A stretch of DNA of 20,654 nt from a virus. The position numbers were made by a program, and so were the translations under genes. A model generated the notes under the pieces. It ran no database searches. It was not told the origin of the DNA and saw only the letters and a list, made by a program, of their open reading frames with translations. The stretch is from positions 1-20,654 of IMG/VR virus record IMGVR_UViG_3300005663_001384; one strand, given 5' to 3'. This document shows positions 7,948-20,482 of this stretch, one piece after another. Every line of letters begins with the position of its first letter. Position 1 is the first letter of the stretch.

Positions 7948-9495
7948 TTACAGCATTGTCGCCTCGGTCAAATCGGTAAATTTTACTCCACGTGGGTCTG
8001 TCGGAGCAATCAAGCAGTAATACCAGAACGGAGATTCCAGTAAATCCATCGGAGCACCGCCCGAAGAATGAGCCACTGAAAATACACCTGTAAGACCGCC
8101 AAGCGGATTGAGAAATTCAATCTCCTGGCCCATTGTAGCTTCGAGTCCACCAAGTCTCGGAGGACTATATCGTTTGATATTGTCTCCACCAAACTTACAT
8201 GCGTAGAGCGTATTACTGAGACACATCGGACTCATAATCCACTCATAGGTTCGCCCACCAAACTCGTAAGAAATCTGAGACCAACCCCCCTTCATTGACA
8301 GGGCTTTTCCGGTTCGCTCATAATTCATTCTGTTATTATACAAACCGGGCTGTTCGAGCCATTTCAACTGAACACCCTGAGTTGTAATAACAGTATCCAG
8401 AGTCTCGCCCGGGTAAGCGTCCAAATATCCACCGATGTAACCATTGATTACATTATCAGTGAGGGGACCATTAATGGCTTTAACCTGAGACTTGAACTGA
8501 GGATAAACATCTAAATCAAGAGCCGCAGCCCCAGATGTTCCGCCCATAATAGTACCGGACGATTTAATCCAATCATTTATTCCCCAACTAAACTGAGGTC
8601 TGGTAGCAGTCGTATACCGAGTTGTCTTGGCGAATACAATCCAATCATCCGCAGCCGGGTCTTGGGTATAATCCCCAAATCCGGTCAAAGAACCATCAGA
8701 TGAATCTATAGGTCTGACAGTTATCTTCTTACCAAGATAATCAACCGCCGAAATAATCATGTGAATATAATTGGCACTTTCATAATTTCGGACATCGGTT
8801 CCATCTGTAGCCGTACCGTCCTGCAATACTCCAGCACTATCGGCAACAAAATCAATCCGCATACTCTGACGGAAATTACTAATACGACCCTTAGTCTCAT
8901 CAATAACAATATCCAAATAACCAGTGTTAGTTGAATTATCCGCTACCGAAGAAATTCTACCGATAACCTGATTCTCATTGCCCGAATCATTGGTTACAAT
9001 ATGAGAGAAGAAACTGGAAGCCTCATAAATAGCTTTCAATTTCGCTACGGCTTTCATATCCCGCACGACCTTCTTAATCTGAGCCGCATTCAACAAATCA
9101 GCCTGCTTCCAGGCAACGGGAATGCTAAAGTTTCCAACTACTTTATGAAGTACAAGTTCCCGCTTAATATCGCCCATGTGAGGAGATTCCACCGCACTCG
9201 GGAAAATAGACAAATTACTTGCGGCTGTTCCCTGAGCAAGCATCTCTGCCATAGTACCGGCGAAAGTGGTCATTTCCGGACCGAGAGGATCACCAGACTC
9301 AATCAGACCGGCTACTCCTGTTTCATAGAGATGTATTACTTTATAACCCCGACCAAGACCCTGCTGGCTCTTAACACCAAAAGCCGTCCTCTTAATCTTA
9401 TCGAACACAGGAGCAATAACCGGTCCTATGTCGTGGATAATCATCGGCAATTCCTCACGAACTAAATTATCAAGGCTACTAATTGCTTCACTCAT
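7948..9495 (-). CDS. Major capsid protein (HK97-type fold inferred)
   Basis: A 515-residue protein, in the usual place for the capsid gene after the scaffold-like gene. It has the features of large phage capsid proteins: a helical N-terminus (SLDNLVREELPMIIHDIGPV), a long E-loop-like region around residues 45-110 with GRGYKVIHLYETG, a spine-like helix near QIKKVVRDMKAVAKLKAIYE, a large inserted beta domain at roughly 185-320, and a C-terminal P-domain-like end (FSVAHSSGGAPMDLLESPFW). There is no strong motif, so the call rests on size, composition and synteny. AAGGAGT with an 8-nt spacer is a strong Shine-Dalgarno, and the ATG overlaps the stop of the upstream endonuclease gene as ATGA. High expression is expected. 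The hairpin at 7852-7925 follows it. Confidence 0.75.
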   Translation of the reverse strand: MSEAISSLDNLVREELPMIIHDIGPVIAPVFDKIKRTAFGVKSQQGLGRGYKVIHLYETGVAGLIESGDPLGPEMTTFAGTMAEMLAQGTAASNLSIFPSAVESPHMGDIKRELVLHKVVGNFSIPVAWKQADLLNAAQIKKVVRDMKAVAKLKAIYEASSFFSHIVTNDSGNENQVIGRISSVADNSTNTGYLDIVIDETKGRISNFRQSMRIDFVADSAGVLQDGTATDGTDVRNYESANYIHMIISAVDYLGKKITVRPIDSSDGSLTGFGDYTQDPAADDWIVFAKTTRYTTATRPQFSWGINDWIKSSGTIMGGTSGAAALDLDVYPQFKSQVKAINGPLTDNVINGYIGGYLDAYPGETLDTVITTQGVQLKWLEQPGLYNNRMNYERTGKALSMKGGWSQISYEFGGRTYEWIMSPMCLSNTLYACKFGGDNIKRYSPPRLGGLEATMGQEIEFLNPLGGLTGVFSVAHSSGGAPMDLLESPFWYYCLIAPTDPRGVKFTDLTEATML

Positions 9496-10034
9496 AATTT
9501 TTTACTCCTTAAAATAGTGAATTTTGGAGTTTCATGTATTTTATTTTCATACTTATTAAACACATCAGTCCCCAAATATTCTCGTATTAAGTCAAGGGAT
9601 GAAACCTTATCAAACCATGCAATCATAGCATTGCAGGGTTTACAAATAAGACCTCGAATGACTCCTGTTTTATGGTCATGGTCAACGCACAACTTATGAG
9701 GTAAAACAGATTGACTTACCTCGCAAATAGCACAATTACCATTTTGAAACTCAAAAAGTTGTTCATACTCTTTTGTAGCCAAATGAATCCCATAAGACCT
9801 CCAATGGTATTCTTGTTGTCTGGTTGGAGAAGAACAAATACAAGCAGAACCGTCCGTTCTATGCCGCCCACAAACACTATGTTCCCAATAATAAACGGAA
9901 CCATCAGAATGATACCGTTTTAACAATTGTCGAAGATGCCCGCAATCATCTATTGAACAATTACGTCTCCGATGGACAATTCCATCTGAATCATGAAAAT
10001 AACTCTTTTTGATTCCAGTCCAAGTAGAAATCAC
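9492..10034 (-). CDS. Endonuclease VII-type HNH nuclease, probable free-standing homing endonuclease
   Basis: A 180-residue protein. The C-terminal half carries the Endonuclease_7 (PF02945) signature: CAIC at 101-104, VDHDHKTG at 117-124 with the catalytic DHDH, then RGLICKPCN at 127-135, giving a four-cysteine zinc site around a beta-beta-alpha-metal nuclease. The N-terminal half has further Cys/His residues (C26, C31, C55, H58, C65, C67) that probably form a second zinc-binding DNA-recognition module. Its position between scaffold and capsid genes, interrupting a normally tight pair, suggests a mobile homing gene; a Holliday-junction resolvase role, as in T4 gp49, is the alternative. The start is uncertain: AAGGAG at 10040-10045 is only 4 nt from the GTG at 10034 but 7 nt from the next codon, ATT. 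The first ATG after it (ATGTGA) is a dead end. Confidence 0.85.
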   Translation of the reverse strand: MISTWTGIKKSYFHDSDGIVHRRRNCSIDDCGHLRQLLKRYHSDGSVYYWEHSVCGRHRTDGSACICSSPTRQQEYHWRSYGIHLATKEYEQLFEFQNGNCAICEVSQSVLPHKLCVDHDHKTGVIRGLICKPCNAMIAWFDKVSSLDLIREYLGTDVFNKYENKIHETPKFTILRSKKL

Positions 10035-10064
10035 ATAACTCCTTAACTATACAGTTTCAGTTAC

Positions 10065-11015: not shown

Positions 11016-13046
11016 TTAGTATTGTGGTGTTTCTCCTCCACCCTGCGGAGGTTGCATTTCAAGCTCTGCGGCATCTTCCGGTTGGAGCATTTCTTCTGGT
11101 AATTCCCCCAACCCTACTTTATGTTCTTCATAATGTTCTATAAAAGCATCCCTAACTTCCTGAGAGGCAGCGTAGAACTCAGGCCGAGCCATAAAAGCAT
11201 CGAGAACACTTAAATGAACTAAGTGCATATCTCTCTCTGCTACAATGACTTTACCTGGTTTTTCCCCATCGCCGAACAGAGATAGGTTTTCAAGTTTAGA
11301 CCGGCGATAATTCTGCCAAGCCACTTCATTTCCAACTGCGGAATCTAACCCTAATTCCCGCACCTTGAAACTATATTCATCAAGTGTAATTCGACCTTTA
11401 TCAAGAGCTTCTTTTAATTCCAACTTCTGTTGCTCTTTTGATATAGGAACTTCGGATGCTATATTTATATTAACCTCATCCGGAGATGGAATTGCATTTT
11501 GGGCTAAACTAATTTCACCTGTTGAAGAATCCAAGACTATTCCCGCCAAAGAATCATCGAGATTATTAATGCTAACTACCTTACTGGCAGGCCAAATAGC
11601 CTTACTGATACCGAGCATAGCCCGATAAACCCCAGATACAGCAACCGCAACATTTTTAGCGGTAGGTGACAAAGGAATATTACTTGTCTCATATAGGAAT
11701 CCCAATCCAGAAGCCGAATCAACTCTACCAGGAGCACCTCCCTTTAACATTTCCGTAGGTTGATTAGCACTATCATTCATTATACTAATTGCCAATGTAG
11801 CCGCCTCAATTTGAGGTTTTGTCAATCTCGCAGGTTCTATATTAAAAGGCTTCAATTCCGGAGTTGTATAATCAGGCTCATAAGTTATCCGCTTAACACC
11901 ATCCTGCCCCCTATGAGCATCAGGCGGAGTACCAAGAGAAGCAGGCCACATCATCAACCCATACAAATCATAATCCGATATTGTCTGGAAAAGACTACTA
12001 AGACTGTATTCTGCCTCAGTATTTAAGGGCAACAACTGATCTACAAAAGACCTACCATAAAAACCACCTACAGTAACATCTCTCGCCACCCGTATAGGCA
12101 TGTGGAACCGTTCATTGGAGTGGTCATAACGATGCAGTTGCCTCAACCTATTATAAGACCCTGCCAAAATAAGATATTCAGCTAAATACCCATCCGAAGT
12201 CTCGGTCCAAACTTCAACCAATAATGTCACATCCGTTTGTGTTTTATCTTTTTTGTTTTTTCTCCCCGCCCATTGAGTCTCTACCTGACTATTACTGGTT
12301 GCACTTCTAACAAAGAATCCCCCCCCAACAGTAGTCAAGGAAGCCGTCCCCTGAAATTTAGATGTTGCATCCGCAGGTAAATCCCCAAACGGAACCTTAA
12401 AATCATCCATCCCTTTATAAACTTTTTTACCGGCACCGGGAGTTATTGTTAAACTTTTAACCCAATCAGTCGGTACATATCTTACCCTAATCAATCCCCG
12501 CACATCAGTAGGAGCGGAAACATCAATCGGAATAGGAATCAATTCCCAAGGAGGAATAGTCTCAATTCCAACACTATCTGGCCCTTCAACCCATAACCCA
12601 AATCCAATAGTCCCATACTGTAGCAACATCGGAAAAGCATTCAACGCTAATGAAGCTACTTTCTCCTGTGGAAACATCGAATCCAGTACAACCTGGGCCG
12701 TACTCGCCTTTCTCAAACCATCAAGACTTTGCCCCCTCCTCGATACAGCAGGGGCCATATTAATAGAAAGTAATCTCCCCAACTGAGATTGATACTTTGC
12801 AATAATCCCCTCATACCTGAATTTAAGCACCCCAGCCTCATTCAAATAAGAGGCATTCAATGTCCCATCCCCGTAGTTAATATTAGTAAAATTCCTAAGC
12901 CCTCGCATATAGAAATGATTAATATACCAATTTATACTAATCGGATTCATCCTTGAACGCCCCGAGGTTACGAGATATTGAAATATCTCCTCCACTTGAG
13001 GTTTATTAGCCGGGGTATCTTTTGGTAATACGAATTTATAGGCGAT
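11016..13046 (-). CDS. Portal protein
   Basis: Head-tail portal, inferred from size (about 676 residues), position between TerL and scaffold, and pattern. The N-terminal half has GLRNFTNINY, a long helix with LKFRYEGIIAKYQSQLGRLL, and YGTIGFGLWVEG followed by ETIPPWELIPIP, typical of portal wing regions. Then come FHMPIRVARDVTVGGFYGRSF and an Ala/Ser helix with TLAISIMNDSANQPTEMLKG. The C-terminus is acidic and Gln/Gly-rich. Start: the first canonical codon is GTG at 12995, which has no Shine-Dalgarno. The frame stays open upstream for 17 codons that read as a natural N-terminus (AYKFVLPKDTPANKPQVEE). A perfect GGAGGT at 13055-13060 lies 8 nt before an ATC codon at 13046, so I place the start there as a near-cognate initiator. 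If this is wrong, use 12995. Confidence 0.8.
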   Translation of the reverse strand: MAYKFVLPKDTPANKPQVEEIFQYLVTSGRSRMNPISINWYINHFYMRGLRNFTNINYGDGTLNASYLNEAGVLKFRYEGIIAKYQSQLGRLLSINMAPAVSRRGQSLDGLRKASTAQVVLDSMFPQEKVASLALNAFPMLLQYGTIGFGLWVEGPDSVGIETIPPWELIPIPIDVSAPTDVRGLIRVRYVPTDWVKSLTITPGAGKKVYKGMDDFKVPFGDLPADATSKFQGTASLTTVGGGFFVRSATSNSQVETQWAGRKNKKDKTQTDVTLLVEVWTETSDGYLAEYLILAGSYNRLRQLHRYDHSNERFHMPIRVARDVTVGGFYGRSFVDQLLPLNTEAEYSLSSLFQTISDYDLYGLMMWPASLGTPPDAHRGQDGVKRITYEPDYTTPELKPFNIEPARLTKPQIEAATLAISIMNDSANQPTEMLKGGAPGRVDSASGLGFLYETSNIPLSPTAKNVAVAVSGVYRAMLGISKAIWPASKVVSINNLDDSLAGIVLDSSTGEISLAQNAIPSPDEVNINIASEVPISKEQQKLELKEALDKGRITLDEYSFKVRELGLDSAVGNEVAWQNYRRSKLENLSLFGDGEKPGKVIVAERDMHLVHLSVLDAFMARPEFYAASQEVRDAFIEHYEEHKVGLGELPEEMLQPEDAAELEMQPPQGGGETPQY

Positions 13047-13048
13047 GG

Positions 13049-13333
13049 TTAATTACCTCCAACTTCGAGGGTGTAATTACTATTTGCAGGTTTTTTATCT
13101 TTTTTCTTACCAGATGCAATGCCTTTAAGATTCTTCTGCGGAGGTTTCTGACTTGCAACCAAAGCTCGTAGTAGTTCTGGTTTAGCACTCTTTTCTCCGG
13201 CTACAAGTATCATAAGTTGCTTATTGGTTTCGGTAATTCTCGTAACGGATAAAAGGATAACCATTAAAAGGACAACTACAAAAAGTATGAGCAATCCAGT
13301 AAAAATACTAAAAAATAAAATTATTGGATTCAT
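13049..13333 (-). CDS. Small N-terminally anchored membrane protein, 94 aa
   Basis: Residues 1-30 form a strong hydrophobic segment (MNPIILFFSIFTGLLILFVV onwards). Next is a short helical region with KQLMILVAGEKSAKPELLRAL, then a very basic, lysine-rich tail (KKKDKKPANS). The topology is probably a single-pass anchor with a cytoplasmic basic tail. It is the first gene after the promoter at 13360-13387, with AAAGGAAG as Shine-Dalgarno, so it leads a transcription unit into the portal gene. Its last codons supply the portal Shine-Dalgarno. It could be a membrane tether for assembly or a holin-like protein; the family is not recognised. Confidence 0.75.
   Translation of the reverse strand: MNPIILFFSIFTGLLILFVVVLLMVILLSVTRITETNKQLMILVAGEKSAKPELLRALVASQKPPQKNLKGIASGKKKDKKPANSNYTLEVGGN
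13136..13144 (+). repeat. CTGCGGAGG motif, representative of 12 dispersed copies
   Basis: Exact copies of CTGCGGAGG on the plus strand start at 1858, 5446, 11043, 13136, 16477 and 16612. Exact copies on the minus strand (CCTCCGCAG on plus) start at 1558, 3173, 10563, 14126, 16191 and 20310. One-mismatch copies start at 16285 and 20484. The base before CTGCGGAGG is a pyrimidine in 11 of 12 copies. The copies fall inside genes in different frames. None occurs between 5455 and 10562 or between 16621 and 20309. Confidence 0.85.
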
Positions 13334-14021: not shown

Positions 14022-15869
14022 CTATCCTACTATATTTCTGTTGCCCCGCACTATGCGGCGATCATTTGGATTAATAATTGATTTACGACTTCTATGGCTC
14101 AAGATGTCGAGCATTTCACCAGTCACCTCCGCAGTATTAACTCCAGATAAAAGGGGCATCCCTCGAACTAAAGGTAAGTTCTTGCGAATCCGTTCCAACA
14201 ATCCGGGCTTACCGGTTTCCCGAGTAAATTTCCCCCCTCGATTCTTAACCACATACTGACACATGGATAGCGTGTCGATAACATCATCATGAGGTAATAA
14301 GGCCAAGTCCGGGGTGAAATCCTCAGTCTGATTATATAGTTGGTCAAAAGGCCACTTCCCCGCAAGGTGAGCGGGATATTTAATTCTGCCGGGGCGGTAT
14401 CGCCATTCTAACCCACATATACGTTGCCCCTTAGTAACCTTAGATGGGTAGGTAATTGGGAATACTCTGGCTCTCCAGGGATGAGATGTTTTATTCTCCA
14501 TCTCCTCAATATATTCCTGAACAGCTTCGGCAAAACTCATCTGAATACTCACTGCTTCTATTCCGAGAACTCTCGGTCGCCAAGCCAAGCCTTTTTCATA
14601 TATCAACCGAAGCAAGGTAGCATCTTTAGCCCGTCCAAGCCATACATCTAAAATCCACAGGGTATTGTTTGTATCAAATCCAAGAATGGCTATGCAGGAA
14701 TAATCGTTATATTGTGATAGTCCCTGCCCATAATCAAAGAGCAAGATTCGATACATAGGAGCGACAAGTTCATTATATGGTTTTTCAAAATCCTTATATA
14801 CTCGCCGCCCAGGTTCCATAAACCGCTCAGACCATTTTATAAGGCCGGTATGAACTAATGGATTATTCCAATCAAATTCCCCCTCTACAGTATATTCATT
14901 CTTGCGAGGATCAATAACTAAAATTCGTTCCTGATCTGAAACAGGCTCATTACAATATTCAGATGCAAAAGCCGAAGGTCCAATTTCCCCCCTACGAGCT
15001 TCGAGAACTTCCTGTGACCATTTCTCCGGCCACAACACATAAACCTTTTTGGAATCCTCTTTATCGTAGGCTATAGCCTTCAAAACTTTACGATTCCAAT
15101 AATCAAATCGAGGGTCGTCCCCAGTAGTCGCATGGTATAGAAAAGACCTTCTATTAATAAGTGTCCCCACCCAGTAAATAGAGGAACCGGACTCAAGCAT
15201 AGGAATAATCTGCCGGAAAAGAATCACCTCAAATTTCTCTACGACAGCTTGAGCGGCGGCCTGCGACTCGGAATCCGGATCATTTTCAGGATCATCAAGG
15301 AGATATAATTGAGGGCGGCCTCCTCTTTTTTTTCCCATCACACTTTGCCCACTTATAACAGCCCCATTTCGCAAAGTAAGATGGTGATGATTCCAAATAG
15401 CCCTACCCCTCTTTGGTTTTACTACCCCAAAATCTTTAAGGATTAATTCATTTTCTATAAGTTGTGGGATTAATTTATCAAACCGGATTTCAACTTGCCT
15501 ATCAGTGGATAATCCGAGAGCTATTTCATAATGAGGCCGAGTCAAGGATAATAAAAGAGGAATCTCAAGACCAATAACAGTAGATTTCGCAGACCCCCTC
15601 GGAGCAGCGGTGGCATTTCTCGCATGTTCCCCGAGGTCATAAACCATATCAGCATGGAACTCCGGACTTTCTTCAAAACCATTTTTATAAAAGAGTTTCC
15701 CTGCCCCCCCTAAATACACTCTGCGGAAGAAATCCCAAGCCACCACCAAATCATAAGCAGTTGTCTGATTATGAAGCACAGCCAACCTCGCCTGCTTCTG
15801 TCCATCCTCAGAAAGTTCATTATAGTCGGATGGGAGGGGCCAAATATCATAAGGTCTTTGTATCTTCGT
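14022..15869 (-). CDS. terL: Terminase large subunit (ATPase plus nuclease)
   Basis: The DNA-packaging motor. Positions are counted from the leucine codon at 15785. The Walker A variant APRGSAKST is at 61-69; Walker B YLLDDPEND at 161-169 has the two Asp and catalytic Glu; coupling motif WVGT is at 215-218. The RNase H-like nuclease begins RILLFDYGQG with Asp351 and ends near residue 527 with LLPHDDVIDTL. Start: TTG 15785 is the only in-frame canonical start but lies downstream of 28 open codons that read as a typical TerL N-terminus (YDIWPLPSDYNELSEDGQKQ, then ARLAVLHNQ). AAAGGA at 15878-15883 lies 8 nt before an ACG codon at 15869, which I take as a near-cognate start. The alternative is the ATG that overlaps the previous stop in a different frame, plus a frameshift. 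The gene overlaps the upstream one by 23 nt. Confidence 0.9.
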   Translation of the reverse strand, partial: TKIQRPYDIWPLPSDYNELSEDGQKQARLAVLHNQTTAYDLVVAWDFFRRVYLGGAGKLFYKNGFEESPEFHADMVYDLGEHARNATAAPRGSAKSTVIGLEIPLLLSLTRPHYEIALGLSTDRQVEIRFDKLIPQLIENELILKDFGVVKPKRGRAIWNHHHLTLRNGAVISGQSVMGKKRGGRPQLYLLDDPENDPDSESQAAAQAVVEKFEVILFRQIIPMLESGSSIYWVGTLINRRSFLYHATTGDDPRFDYWNRKVLKAIAYDKEDSKKVYVLWPEKWSQEVLEARRGEIGPSAFASEYCNEPVSDQERILVIDPRKNEYTVEGEFDWNNPLVHTGLIKWSERFMEPGRRVYKDFEKPYNELVAPMYRILLFDYGQGLSQYNDYSCIAILGFDTNNTLWILDVWLGRAKDATLLRLIYEKGLAWRPRVLGIEAVSIQMSFAEAVQEYIEEMENKTSHPWRARVFPITYPSKVTKGQRICGLEWRYRPGRIKYPAHLAGKWPFDQLYNQTEDFTPDLALLPHDDVIDTLSMCQYVVKNRGGKFTRETGKPGLLERIRKNLPLVRGMPLLSGVNTAEVTGEMLDILSHRSRKSIINPNDRRIVRGNRNIVG

Positions 15870-16923
15870 TTTTCAATTCCTTTAATGTTGGGAGAGTTCG
15901 GATGCAATCGAAAAAGGCGATGGTAGTTGCTATTGAAGCACACCAAGCGGGATTGCCTACATTCGTTCCCATAATAATTTTCAGACTCGGCCAGATTCCT
16001 TCAAGATACCCCAGTGTTTTAAGAATAGCAAAAACCATATCGGGAACATTAGCCCTATCCTTAAAATCCCAAGTGGTCGTAGATGGCGTGACTAATGGCT
16101 GAGAACATAACATAACAATGTGCATCGCTACAGCCGAGGGTACAAACCCATTCGACAAGACATACTCCTTGAGGGCTACGAGGTCTTTATCCTCCGCAGG
16201 TTTAGAGGTACATATACCACAATCAGGACAGTCTATGGAGTGGTCTTTGATATGTTTAGCAAGGGCAATCATATCAACCTTTTTCTGCGGAGTTTCTATT
16301 TTTGGGATGCCGAGTTTGTCGGCAGTCTCGTTGTAGCGTTCGATATGATTAACAGAACGTGCGGCGACAGATATACACATTGCACATCTTTTATTATCAT
16401 CTAACGCATCCTTGTTCCCATAAAAAGTACCACAACTTATACAAGTATAATCAGATTTTGGAGGATTATCCTTCTCCTGCGGAGGAGATTCTGCTTCTTT
16501 AATTAAATTGTCAATTTCAACCTTATCTTCTGGAGTAGGACAGATGTGACCTATAAGCTCCGTTTTGTACCTAAAATTAATTTCACACTGACTGCACCGA
16601 TAATTAACTTTCTGCGGAGGAGATTCCTGGGAAGAGGTCTCGGTCGCAGGTGGGAGGTCTGGTTTTGATACAGGGGTTTTCACCTGTTGTGTTTGAGGAA
16701 CTATCGTGTTTCCTATTATCGTCGGTTCCATCGGTTCGCTGTCCAGAAGTCTCTCCTCCGTCTGCTGGTTCAGAGCCTCCAAGTCCTGCGGAATCGACAG
16801 GTCTCGGAGTTCCTGCTTGCTCTGTTCCGACATCTTCGACGGGGAAAGCTTCTCGGGTGTCTGTGTTCTGTCGCCTATCGCATTCTCTATTGGATTCGTT
16901 TTTTTCTTTTTCGATTTGCTCAT
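15847..16923 (-). CDS. Zinc-finger protein of unknown function upstream of TerL
   Basis: A 358-residue protein in two halves. Residues 1-105 are basic, then Pro/Gln/Ser-rich and likely disordered. The middle carries three metal-site candidates: C110-x2-C113 with H126/C128; C161-x2-C164 with C180-x2-C183; and H228 with C232, C235 and C238. Residues 255-345 form a hydrophobic helical domain (FVPSAVAMHIVMLCSQPLVT, then DMVFAILKTLGYLEGIWPSL). The inter-finger linkers ESPPQ, ESPPQ and ETPQ carry three copies of the CTGCGGAGG-type motif. AAGGA precedes the ATG. The first 320 nt overlap the upstream gene in another frame. DNA binding is likely; it may be a packaging or terminase accessory factor by position. 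No family is recognised. Confidence 0.75.
   Translation of the reverse strand: MSKSKKKKTNPIENAIGDRTQTPEKLSPSKMSEQSKQELRDLSIPQDLEALNQQTEERLLDSEPMEPTIIGNTIVPQTQQVKTPVSKPDLPPATETSSQESPPQKVNYRCSQCEINFRYKTELIGHICPTPEDKVEIDNLIKEAESPPQEKDNPPKSDYTCISCGTFYGNKDALDDNKRCAMCISVAARSVNHIERYNETADKLGIPKIETPQKKVDMIALAKHIKDHSIDCPDCGICTSKPAEDKDLVALKEYVLSNGFVPSAVAMHIVMLCSQPLVTPSTTTWDFKDRANVPDMVFAILKTLGYLEGIWPSLKIIMGTNVGNPAWCASIATTIAFFDCIRTLPTLKELKNEDTKTL
16477..16626 (-). repeat. 15-bp direct repeat pair with the CTGCGGAGG core
   Basis: CTGCGGAGGAGATTC occurs identically at 16477-16491 and 16612-16626. Both encode ESPPQ just ahead of a zinc-finger motif. A related third copy lacking the final bases is at 16285 and encodes ETPQ. 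This is consistent with a duplicated linker-plus-finger unit or with selection on the DNA motif itself. Confidence 0.8.
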
Positions 16924-19068: not shown

Positions 19069-19097
19069 ATTATACCATAGTGCCATAGTTGAGTCAA
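19069..19097 (-). promoter_or_regulatory. Sigma70-type promoter after the cytosine methyltransferase gene
   Basis: TTGACT (19097-19092) and TATAAT (19074-19069) are separated by exactly 17 bp, with TGG before the -10 (extended -10). The -35 box contains the TGA stop of the methyltransferase gene. It shares TGGTATAAT, followed by similar AT-rich bases, with the promoter at 13360-13387. It should drive the 48-residue gene, zinc ribbon, amino-methyltransferase and, by read-through, the packaging genes. Confidence 0.85.
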
Positions 19098-20251
19098 GGG
19101 CTTTTTGTAGTATTTTCAATTATTTTTTCGGTGATAGCTTCAATCACATTAACTGTTACGGCGTTTCCAAGGCACTTGTATCGTTGGGTATCAGAGATTC
19201 CTTCTGTCCATCCATCCGGGAATCCCTGGAGTCGTTCACATTCTGTTGGAGTGAGTCGGCGAATATTGTCTCCGATTTTATAACTATCCCAATTTTGCCG
19301 ACTACTATATGGCGAACCTATACCACCTGAACGCACTGTTTTTGATATTTCGTATAATCCTGTTTTACCACCTTGTCCACCAGCATTACCAGCCAATGTT
19401 TGACTTATGCCTTCTGTGGAATAAATCCTTTGTCCCTGCGAGAAATTTCTACTATATGATTTACCATTGTCTAACCATTTTTCTCTGGCTGAAATAACTC
19501 CCCCACAGTATTTAAGATTGCCTTGACTGCCTTCCCCGATAGGAAATACTTGGAGGCGACTTGTTCCTCTAAGATGTCCGATAATGAACACTCGTTCCCG
19601 GTTCTGGGGGACACCGAAGTTTTTACTGTTAAGCACTTGCCACTGGAGGTCATACCCAAGTTCATCCAACGTATTGAGGATAGTTCCGAAGGTTCGGCCT
19701 TTGTCGTGAGATAAAAGCCCCTTAACGTTTTCAAGAAATAGAAGGCGTGGCTGTTTTTCCTGTGCAGCCCTAACGATTTCAAAAAAGAGTGTGCCTCTGG
19801 TATCTGAGAAGCCACCTCGCTTTCCGGCAATAGAAAAGGATTGGCAAGGAAACCCTCCACAAAGTATTTCAAAATCCGAGACATCTGACCATTTGATATT
19901 TGAGACATTTCCATACTCCTTATGTTTTGGGAAGTGTTTTTTGTAGATTTGGATGGCATACTTGTCGATTTCGGAGAAACCAACACAAAATGGTTCTGGT
20001 GAAAATTCTGGTCGCTCAGGGTTGGACATATTTTTGAGAATCCCCCTTTGTTGTACCCCCTCGGGCGATGAACCATCACAAGTCGAGGATGATTGTCCAC
20101 TATGTCGCAAGTTCCTTCTGGTTTCATTATTGAATATCCTTGAATCTCCGACTTCTTTTTGTCGTTCCGATGTGCTCGGAATTTGTTTGGAAGCTCTTTG
20201 TATTCCATGTTCAAATCCTCCTATTCCACTGAATAAAGAAAAATATTTCAT
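19094..20251 (-). CDS. dcm: C5-cytosine DNA methyltransferase with an unusual N-terminal insertion
   Basis: A 385-residue enzyme that methylates cytosine C5 in DNA. Motif I is SLFSGIGGFE (residues 5-14), motif II VGFSEIDKYA (90-99), motif IV GGFPCQSFS (132-140) with catalytic Cys136, motif VI ENV (174-176), motif VIII QNRER (216-220), then RLTPTECERLQGFPDGW and CLGNAV (370-375). Target recognition lies roughly at 235-335. Residues 19-88 are an extra, polar segment between motifs I and II, where most relatives continue within a few residues. In the +1 frame that segment encodes a methyltransferase-like peptide. Whether the insertion is tolerated or harmful is unknown; all core motifs are intact. 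The ATG overlaps the previous stop as ATGA, with AAGGA upstream. Likely role: protection from host restriction; no partner nuclease is seen. Confidence 0.92.
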   Translation of the reverse strand: MKYFSLFSGIGGFEHGIQRASKQIPSTSERQKEVGDSRIFNNETRRNLRHSGQSSSTCDGSSPEGVQQRGILKNMSNPERPEFSPEPFCVGFSEIDKYAIQIYKKHFPKHKEYGNVSNIKWSDVSDFEILCGGFPCQSFSIAGKRGGFSDTRGTLFFEIVRAAQEKQPRLLFLENVKGLLSHDKGRTFGTILNTLDELGYDLQWQVLNSKNFGVPQNRERVFIIGHLRGTSRLQVFPIGEGSQGNLKYCGGVISAREKWLDNGKSYSRNFSQGQRIYSTEGISQTLAGNAGGQGGKTGLYEISKTVRSGGIGSPYSSRQNWDSYKIGDNIRRLTPTECERLQGFPDGWTEGISDTQRYKCLGNAVTVNVIEAITEKIIENTTKSP

Positions 20252-20421
20252 TTTTTAGTTCCTTCGATAAATTCTATTAGTTTTTTTATTTCGGATTCAA
20301 TGTGGCGAACCTCCGCAGGGGTTGGGTTTAAGGTGGCGATTTCGGAGATGATGATTTTATCCTTACAGATGAAATCACTAAAGTCGATAACCTTAAAATC
20401 AGATGGTTTGTGGGTTGCAAT
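20248..20421 (-). CDS. Hypothetical protein, 57 aa, near-cognate start
   Basis: A small, charged protein: ATHKPSDFKVIDFSDFICKD, KIIISEIATLNPTPAEVRHI, then a C-terminal helix ESEIKKLIEFIEGTKK. The only canonical start in frame is TTG 20454, but its first 11 codons overlap the 19-residue ORF and it has no Shine-Dalgarno. GGGAG at 20429-20433 is 7 nt before an ATT at 20421, giving a natural-looking N-terminus, so I use that position as inference. The gene is coupled to the methyltransferase by an ATGA overlap. It carries a CTGCGGAGG motif in its PAEV codons. Confidence 0.6.
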   Translation of the reverse strand: MATHKPSDFKVIDFSDFICKDKIIISEIATLNPTPAEVRHIESEIKKLIEFIEGTKK

Positions 20422-20422
20422 T

Positions 20423-20482
20423 TTATTTCTCCCGCAATTCTGGGTCAATTCCAAAGTTTATGAGGTGGTTGTATTTTTTCAT
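20423..20482 (-). CDS. 19-residue coupled peptide ORF
   Basis: MKKYNHLINFGIDPELREK starts with an ATG that overlaps the stop of the upstream gene as ATGA, ends with TAA, and the next gene begins 1 nt later. The arrangement and gene-like composition suggest a translated coupled peptide, or a translational bridge between its neighbours. It has no Shine-Dalgarno of its own and could be fortuitous. Confidence 0.4.
   Translation of the reverse strand: MKKYNHLINFGIDPELREK

Follow-up and report, generated by a model that had tools for sequence, protein, structure and literature searches.

A probable AUC start codon in the portal gene of an uncultured tailed phage

Introduction

Where does translation of a portal gene begin when no ATG, GTG or TTG is available at its conserved N-terminus? 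Bacteria hardly ever use ATC or ACG as start codons, and gene finders presume ATG, GTG or TTG starts, so that genes with other starts would be annotated too short. The question is raised by a 20.7-kb virus record (the whole stretch of DNA analysed here, called the window), for which an earlier note had proposed that the portal gene starts at ATC. The analysis indicates that in this uncultured tailed phage translation of the portal very probably does begin at AUC, and a second gene of the packaging motor, that of the large terminase subunit, appears to have an equally uncommon start.

Results

The gene on the minus strand at 11016..13046 (676 codons) is well supported as the portal gene of a tailed phage by family matches of its relatives and by a structural model. 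PHROG 156 ('portal protein') was matched by 14 of 46 relatives (best E 2.2e-5), while the portal protein of the window alone had no match to a PHROG portal family above the threshold. An AlphaFold model built from 46 sequences reached a mean pLDDT of 74 and a pTM of 0.69 (an earlier model from 17 close relatives, with a pLDDT of 36, was set aside), and its best PDB matches in Foldseek were the portals of SU10, Pan3, P22 and N4 (E down to 8e-13), with those of T7, PaP3 and other podophages further down the list; the match probability was 1.00 for SU10, Pan3, P22, N4 and T7. Thus, the portal identity assumed in the earlier note is borne out. The gene order has the large terminase upstream of the portal; downstream of it lie a putative scaffold or protease gene, named from its position alone, and then an intact gene of 515 aa, the putative major capsid gene by position, without a family match.

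The minus strand at 13060-13041 reads GGAGGTAATTAACCATCGCC and holds the Shine-Dalgarno (SD) motif GGAGGT (13060-13055), an 8-nt spacer (AATTAACC) and the ATC (13046-13044), from which the frame runs through 676 codons without interruption to the stop at 11016. The computed duplex of GGAGGU with the anti-SD sequence has an energy of -10.6 kcal/mol, the second strongest value for the starts of the window genes that were checked; the motif is among the strongest in the family as well. Followed upstream from the ATC, the frame passes through ACC and TTA to a stop, TAA (13055-13053), so that no longer, NTG-initiated N-terminus is possible. Downstream, the first canonical in-frame codons are GTG at 12995-12993 (codon 18) and ATG at 12950-12948 (codon 33); the GTG is preceded by CTAATAAACCTCAA, which contains no SD motif. 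These features had all been described correctly at the outset, namely the ATC with a perfect GGAGGT at 8 nt and an open frame, the lack of an SD motif before the GTG, and the stop closely upstream. It was also right that a start at the GTG would lose 17 residues, but the N-terminal peptide quoted for them has 19.

The homologues bear directly on this site, and comparing their N-termini was the test that the earlier note had named. Portal relatives were taken from IMG/VR, and codons were tallied in the non-redundant sequences aligned at that very codon: 33 have ATG and two have GTG where the window has ATC (35 of 35). In the more diverged portals, ATG, GTG or TTG lies at most a few codons away from the aligned start, and no portal relative with a visible N-terminus lacked such a codon nearby. 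The ATC is confined to the lineage of the window (two contigs). The typical N-terminus of the family is M-[AGS]-[YF]-K-F-x-L-P, compared with I-A-Y-K-F-V-L-P in the window, and F5, P8, N14 and Q17 are unchanged across 17 aligned portals. Between the window and its nearest relative (L011), codons 2-17 contain eight synonymous and two non-synonymous codon differences; the change to ATC is perhaps recent, which limits the power of this conservation as evidence. Homologues that lack the 17 residues would have spoken against the proposed start site, and here, too, the outcome was in its favour. As far as can be judged from aligned sequences, the homologues fix the portal start at the ATC position.

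Initiation further downstream, at the GTG (codon 18) or the ATG (codon 33), would yield a shortened portal and leave the ATC region untranslated. These two codons are the nearest canonical ones in the frame, but apart from its lack of an SD motif the GTG (12993..12995, minus strand) is aligned with GTT, GTC, GTA or ATA in relatives, and the ATG is not conserved, being replaced by codons for R or I in some of them. In addition, codons 2-17 are still conserved, and the first helix predicted in the AlphaFold model comprises residues 15-47, so that a protein begun at codon 18 would lack the first part of this helix. The GTG was rejected as an ordinary Val codon inside this helix, and a downstream start is regarded as improbable.

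The probable AUC start would be an artefact if an error in sequencing or assembly concealed an ATG, or if the contig carried a minority allele. The contigs are metagenomic and the relatives all have ATG or GTG; however, a sibling contig, IMGVR_UViG_3300005253_002562 (L002/L010), which belongs to a separately labelled IMG/VR data set (both samples may stem from one site), likewise has ATC at the portal start. It differs from the window at seven of 10,699 positions; six of these differences are synonymous, and the portal gene contains three synonymous ones and zero amino-acid changes. An ATC shared by a contig that differs at other sites makes a simple assembly error unlikely, and no broken frames were found in the genes checked. 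Together with the ATG or GTG in 35 of 35 relatives, the sibling makes the ATC more than a chance observation. A hidden ATG, which would gain some plausibility from the fact that the ACG of the terminase gene (see below) comes from one contig, is therefore extremely unlikely. The mostly synonymous differences and the unchanged portal protein suggest that the window and its sibling represent two genuine strains in which the portal gene, with its shared ATC, is functional, and make a dead gene unlikely.

The portal ATC is closely preceded by a gene for a protein of 94 aa with an N-terminal hydrophobic stretch (13049..13333, minus strand), which is conserved in relatives. Its TAA (13051-13049) lies inside the spacer between the SD motif and the ATC, 2 nt before the latter, and in relatives the stop often overlaps the portal ATG. 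It is likely, as inferred from this arrangement, that the portal is translationally coupled to the upstream gene. Readthrough or a frameshift that would carry ribosomes from the upstream gene into the portal was considered and rejected: the distance between the end of that gene and the portal start varies among relatives, so there is no conserved fusion of the two. Also rejected was an RNA hairpin over the SD motif, which is predicted in the window and in L011 and is not preserved in the leaders of other relatives (alignment by eye).

In a second case, which the earlier note had overlooked, the large subunit of the terminase (14022..15869, minus strand; 615 codons; PHROG 38, E 2.6e-57) has ACG (15869-15867) at its conserved start, where the aligned codon is ATG in 25 relatives and GTG in one. 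The frame opens after a TGA with AAA ACG AAG ATA CAA AGA CCT TAT, and an AAAGGA motif (15883-15878) precedes the ACG with an 8-nt spacer; its computed duplex (-5.6 kcal/mol) is average and like that of most genes in the window. The next in-frame NTG, a TTG at 15785, would cost 28 residues, part of the conserved QKQARLAVL region among them, so that in this gene, too, the alignment with relatives reveals no usable ATG, GTG or TTG at the conserved N-terminus. Most likely ACG serves as the start of the terminase just as AUC serves as that of the portal; the ACG was seen on one contig, the sibling beginning within the terminase gene. The gene upstream of the terminase (15847-16923, minus strand) overlaps it by about 23 nt in another frame; in a relative (L023) the corresponding gene stops just before the terminase ATG, and the gene in the window lacks that stop.

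Two lost start codons might also be the sign of a decaying, non-functional provirus. Two conserved starts are indeed altered in one lineage, with no further case among about 50 portal and about 35 terminase relatives, which suggests a lineage-specific cause. Yet the frames of the terminase, the portal, the putative capsid and other late genes are intact, the differences from the sibling are mostly synonymous, and a search of GTDB genomes for a host or prophage with portal and terminase profiles found no relative; decay is thus very unlikely. INPHARED phages contained no relatives of the portal or capsid, and cultured phages are related through the terminase only, at about 23% identity; the phage group is seen solely in metagenomes. 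No tRNA genes were found in the window.

Two further genes of the window have candidate non-NTG starts. A gene of the endonuclease VII type (9492..10034, minus strand; Pfam Endonuclease_7, E 3.5e-19) separates the putative capsid gene from its putative leader, and its candidate starts are GTG at 10034 or ATT at 10031. The endonuclease region spans 9492-10046 in the window (minus strand), 9904-10437 in L018 and 9059-9598 in L023. In relatives that lack the endonuclease, a leader (TTAAGGAG or similar) stands immediately before the putative capsid ATG. The endonuclease gene follows this leader, and in the window it ends in its own TTAAGGAG, which has become the leader of the capsid gene. At the place aligned with the start, two other lineages offer no candidate but ATT: in L018 and L021/L023 no NTG is found before the first Cys residue(s), and ATT is the aligned candidate. 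Judged from these sequences, the gene is possibly a free-standing homing endonuclease with an AUU start. A small ORF (20251-20454, minus strand), for which no homologue was found in the fetched loci, has weak TTG candidates and an in-frame ATT, preceded at 7 nt by GGGAG, which could be another non-NTG start. A C-5 cytosine DNA methylase gene (19097-20251, minus strand; Pfam E 1.3e-83) contains about 65 residues, possibly an insertion, between its start motif FSGIGG and the remaining domain.

Discussion

The following scheme is proposed for the portal gene. The ancestral start of the family would have been ATG, sometimes GTG, and would have changed to ATC in the lineage of the window, with the frame kept intact. 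The initiator fMet-tRNA would pair with the first two bases of AUC and be mismatched at the third position. The GGAGGU 8 nt away would offset the weak codon, so that initiation probably occurs at reduced efficiency, and ribosomes that terminate on the upstream gene, 2 nt from the ATC, would be placed at the site and might thereby aid initiation. IF3 normally discriminates against AUC starts, and it would do so here without abolishing initiation. AUC initiation, coupling, lower yield and IF3 sensitivity are thus what we infer for the portal start.

Low expression of the portal and the terminase from their weak starts is likely, judging from the codons, and the output of the DNA-packaging machinery would probably be lowered. 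The idea of the earlier note that the ATC could hold portal levels below those of the capsid, a tuning of dosage, is plausible; drift that was tolerated thanks to the strong SD motif would fit the ATC equally well. The weak codon occurs in the lineage of the window only, with ATG or GTG in the relatives; since it is not conserved, unlike those of infC or ccpN, selection for weakness is unproven. Across the family, the portals with non-ATG starts (ATC, GTG and GTG) have stronger SD motifs than those with ATG (rank test, p = 0.013, n = 3 versus 15), which is suggestive only, as the sequences are few and related and the nearest relative with ATG, L011, has an equally strong motif. A more far-reaching proposal, that portal AUC and terminase ACG, both as IF3-sensitive starts, co-regulate the packaging motor and hold it low versus the capsid by host initiation fidelity, as a translational switch for the timing of packaging, is rather doubtful.

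If the starts are as proposed, the portal and the terminase would offer a natural test of whether the stoichiometry of the packaging motor is governed by how strong the start codons are. That a single phage should have non-NTG starts in two genes of its packaging motor is the unusual feature of this case, and an ACG at a conserved start would be especially unusual. Gene finders would annotate the portal short by 17 residues and the terminase by 28.

Several systems with non-canonical starts are known, and the IF3-sensitive ones of bacteria (infC, sigR, ccpN) mostly come with a strong SD motif. The infC gene, which starts with ATT in E. coli and ATC in Streptomyces and is repressed by IF3 (PMC5472188), resembles the portal gene in its near-cognate AUN codon mismatched at the third position (PMC5472188, PMC13009471); however, infC is a host regulatory gene in an IF3 feedback loop, whereas the portal is a phage structural gene with a lineage-specific, nonconserved change. 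The sigR gene of Streptomyces, with a GTC start that is also repressed by IF3, can be likened to the phage portal, as its weak start sets the protein ratio versus a partner with a canonical start (PMC5472188). The sigR start is regulatory and experimentally proven, while that of the portal is proposed here from sequence comparison.

In S. aureus, infC (AUA), ccpN (AUA) and cvfC1 (AUU) all have extended SD motifs, and expression from AUU and AUA reporters was about 10% of that from AUG and in one medium as much as 30% (PMC13009471). Like the portal gene, ccpN and cvfC1 combine a weak start with a strong SD motif at proper spacing; their starts are kept across Staphylococci or shared with B. subtilis (PMC13009471), in contrast to AUC and ACG, which are found in one phage lineage. 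In a randomised start library in E. coli, ATC is listed with the codons at 19-44% and also with those at 0.01-6.5% of ATG for a GFP reporter, and ACG gave 0.1-1.5% with an RFP reporter (PMC6925171), and thus the efficiency of AUC in this reporter library is very context-dependent. Among phages, ORF35 of the Ralstonia phage RsoM1USA is likewise annotated with a non-canonical start, GTC; there the start is an annotation only, and the passage on it describes no homologue-based test (PMC6389784). In the open-access literature, no report of non-NTG starts for phage portal or terminase genes was found. An AUC start as such is therefore already known, and what is unusual is its location in a portal gene, together with the parallel ACG of the terminase.
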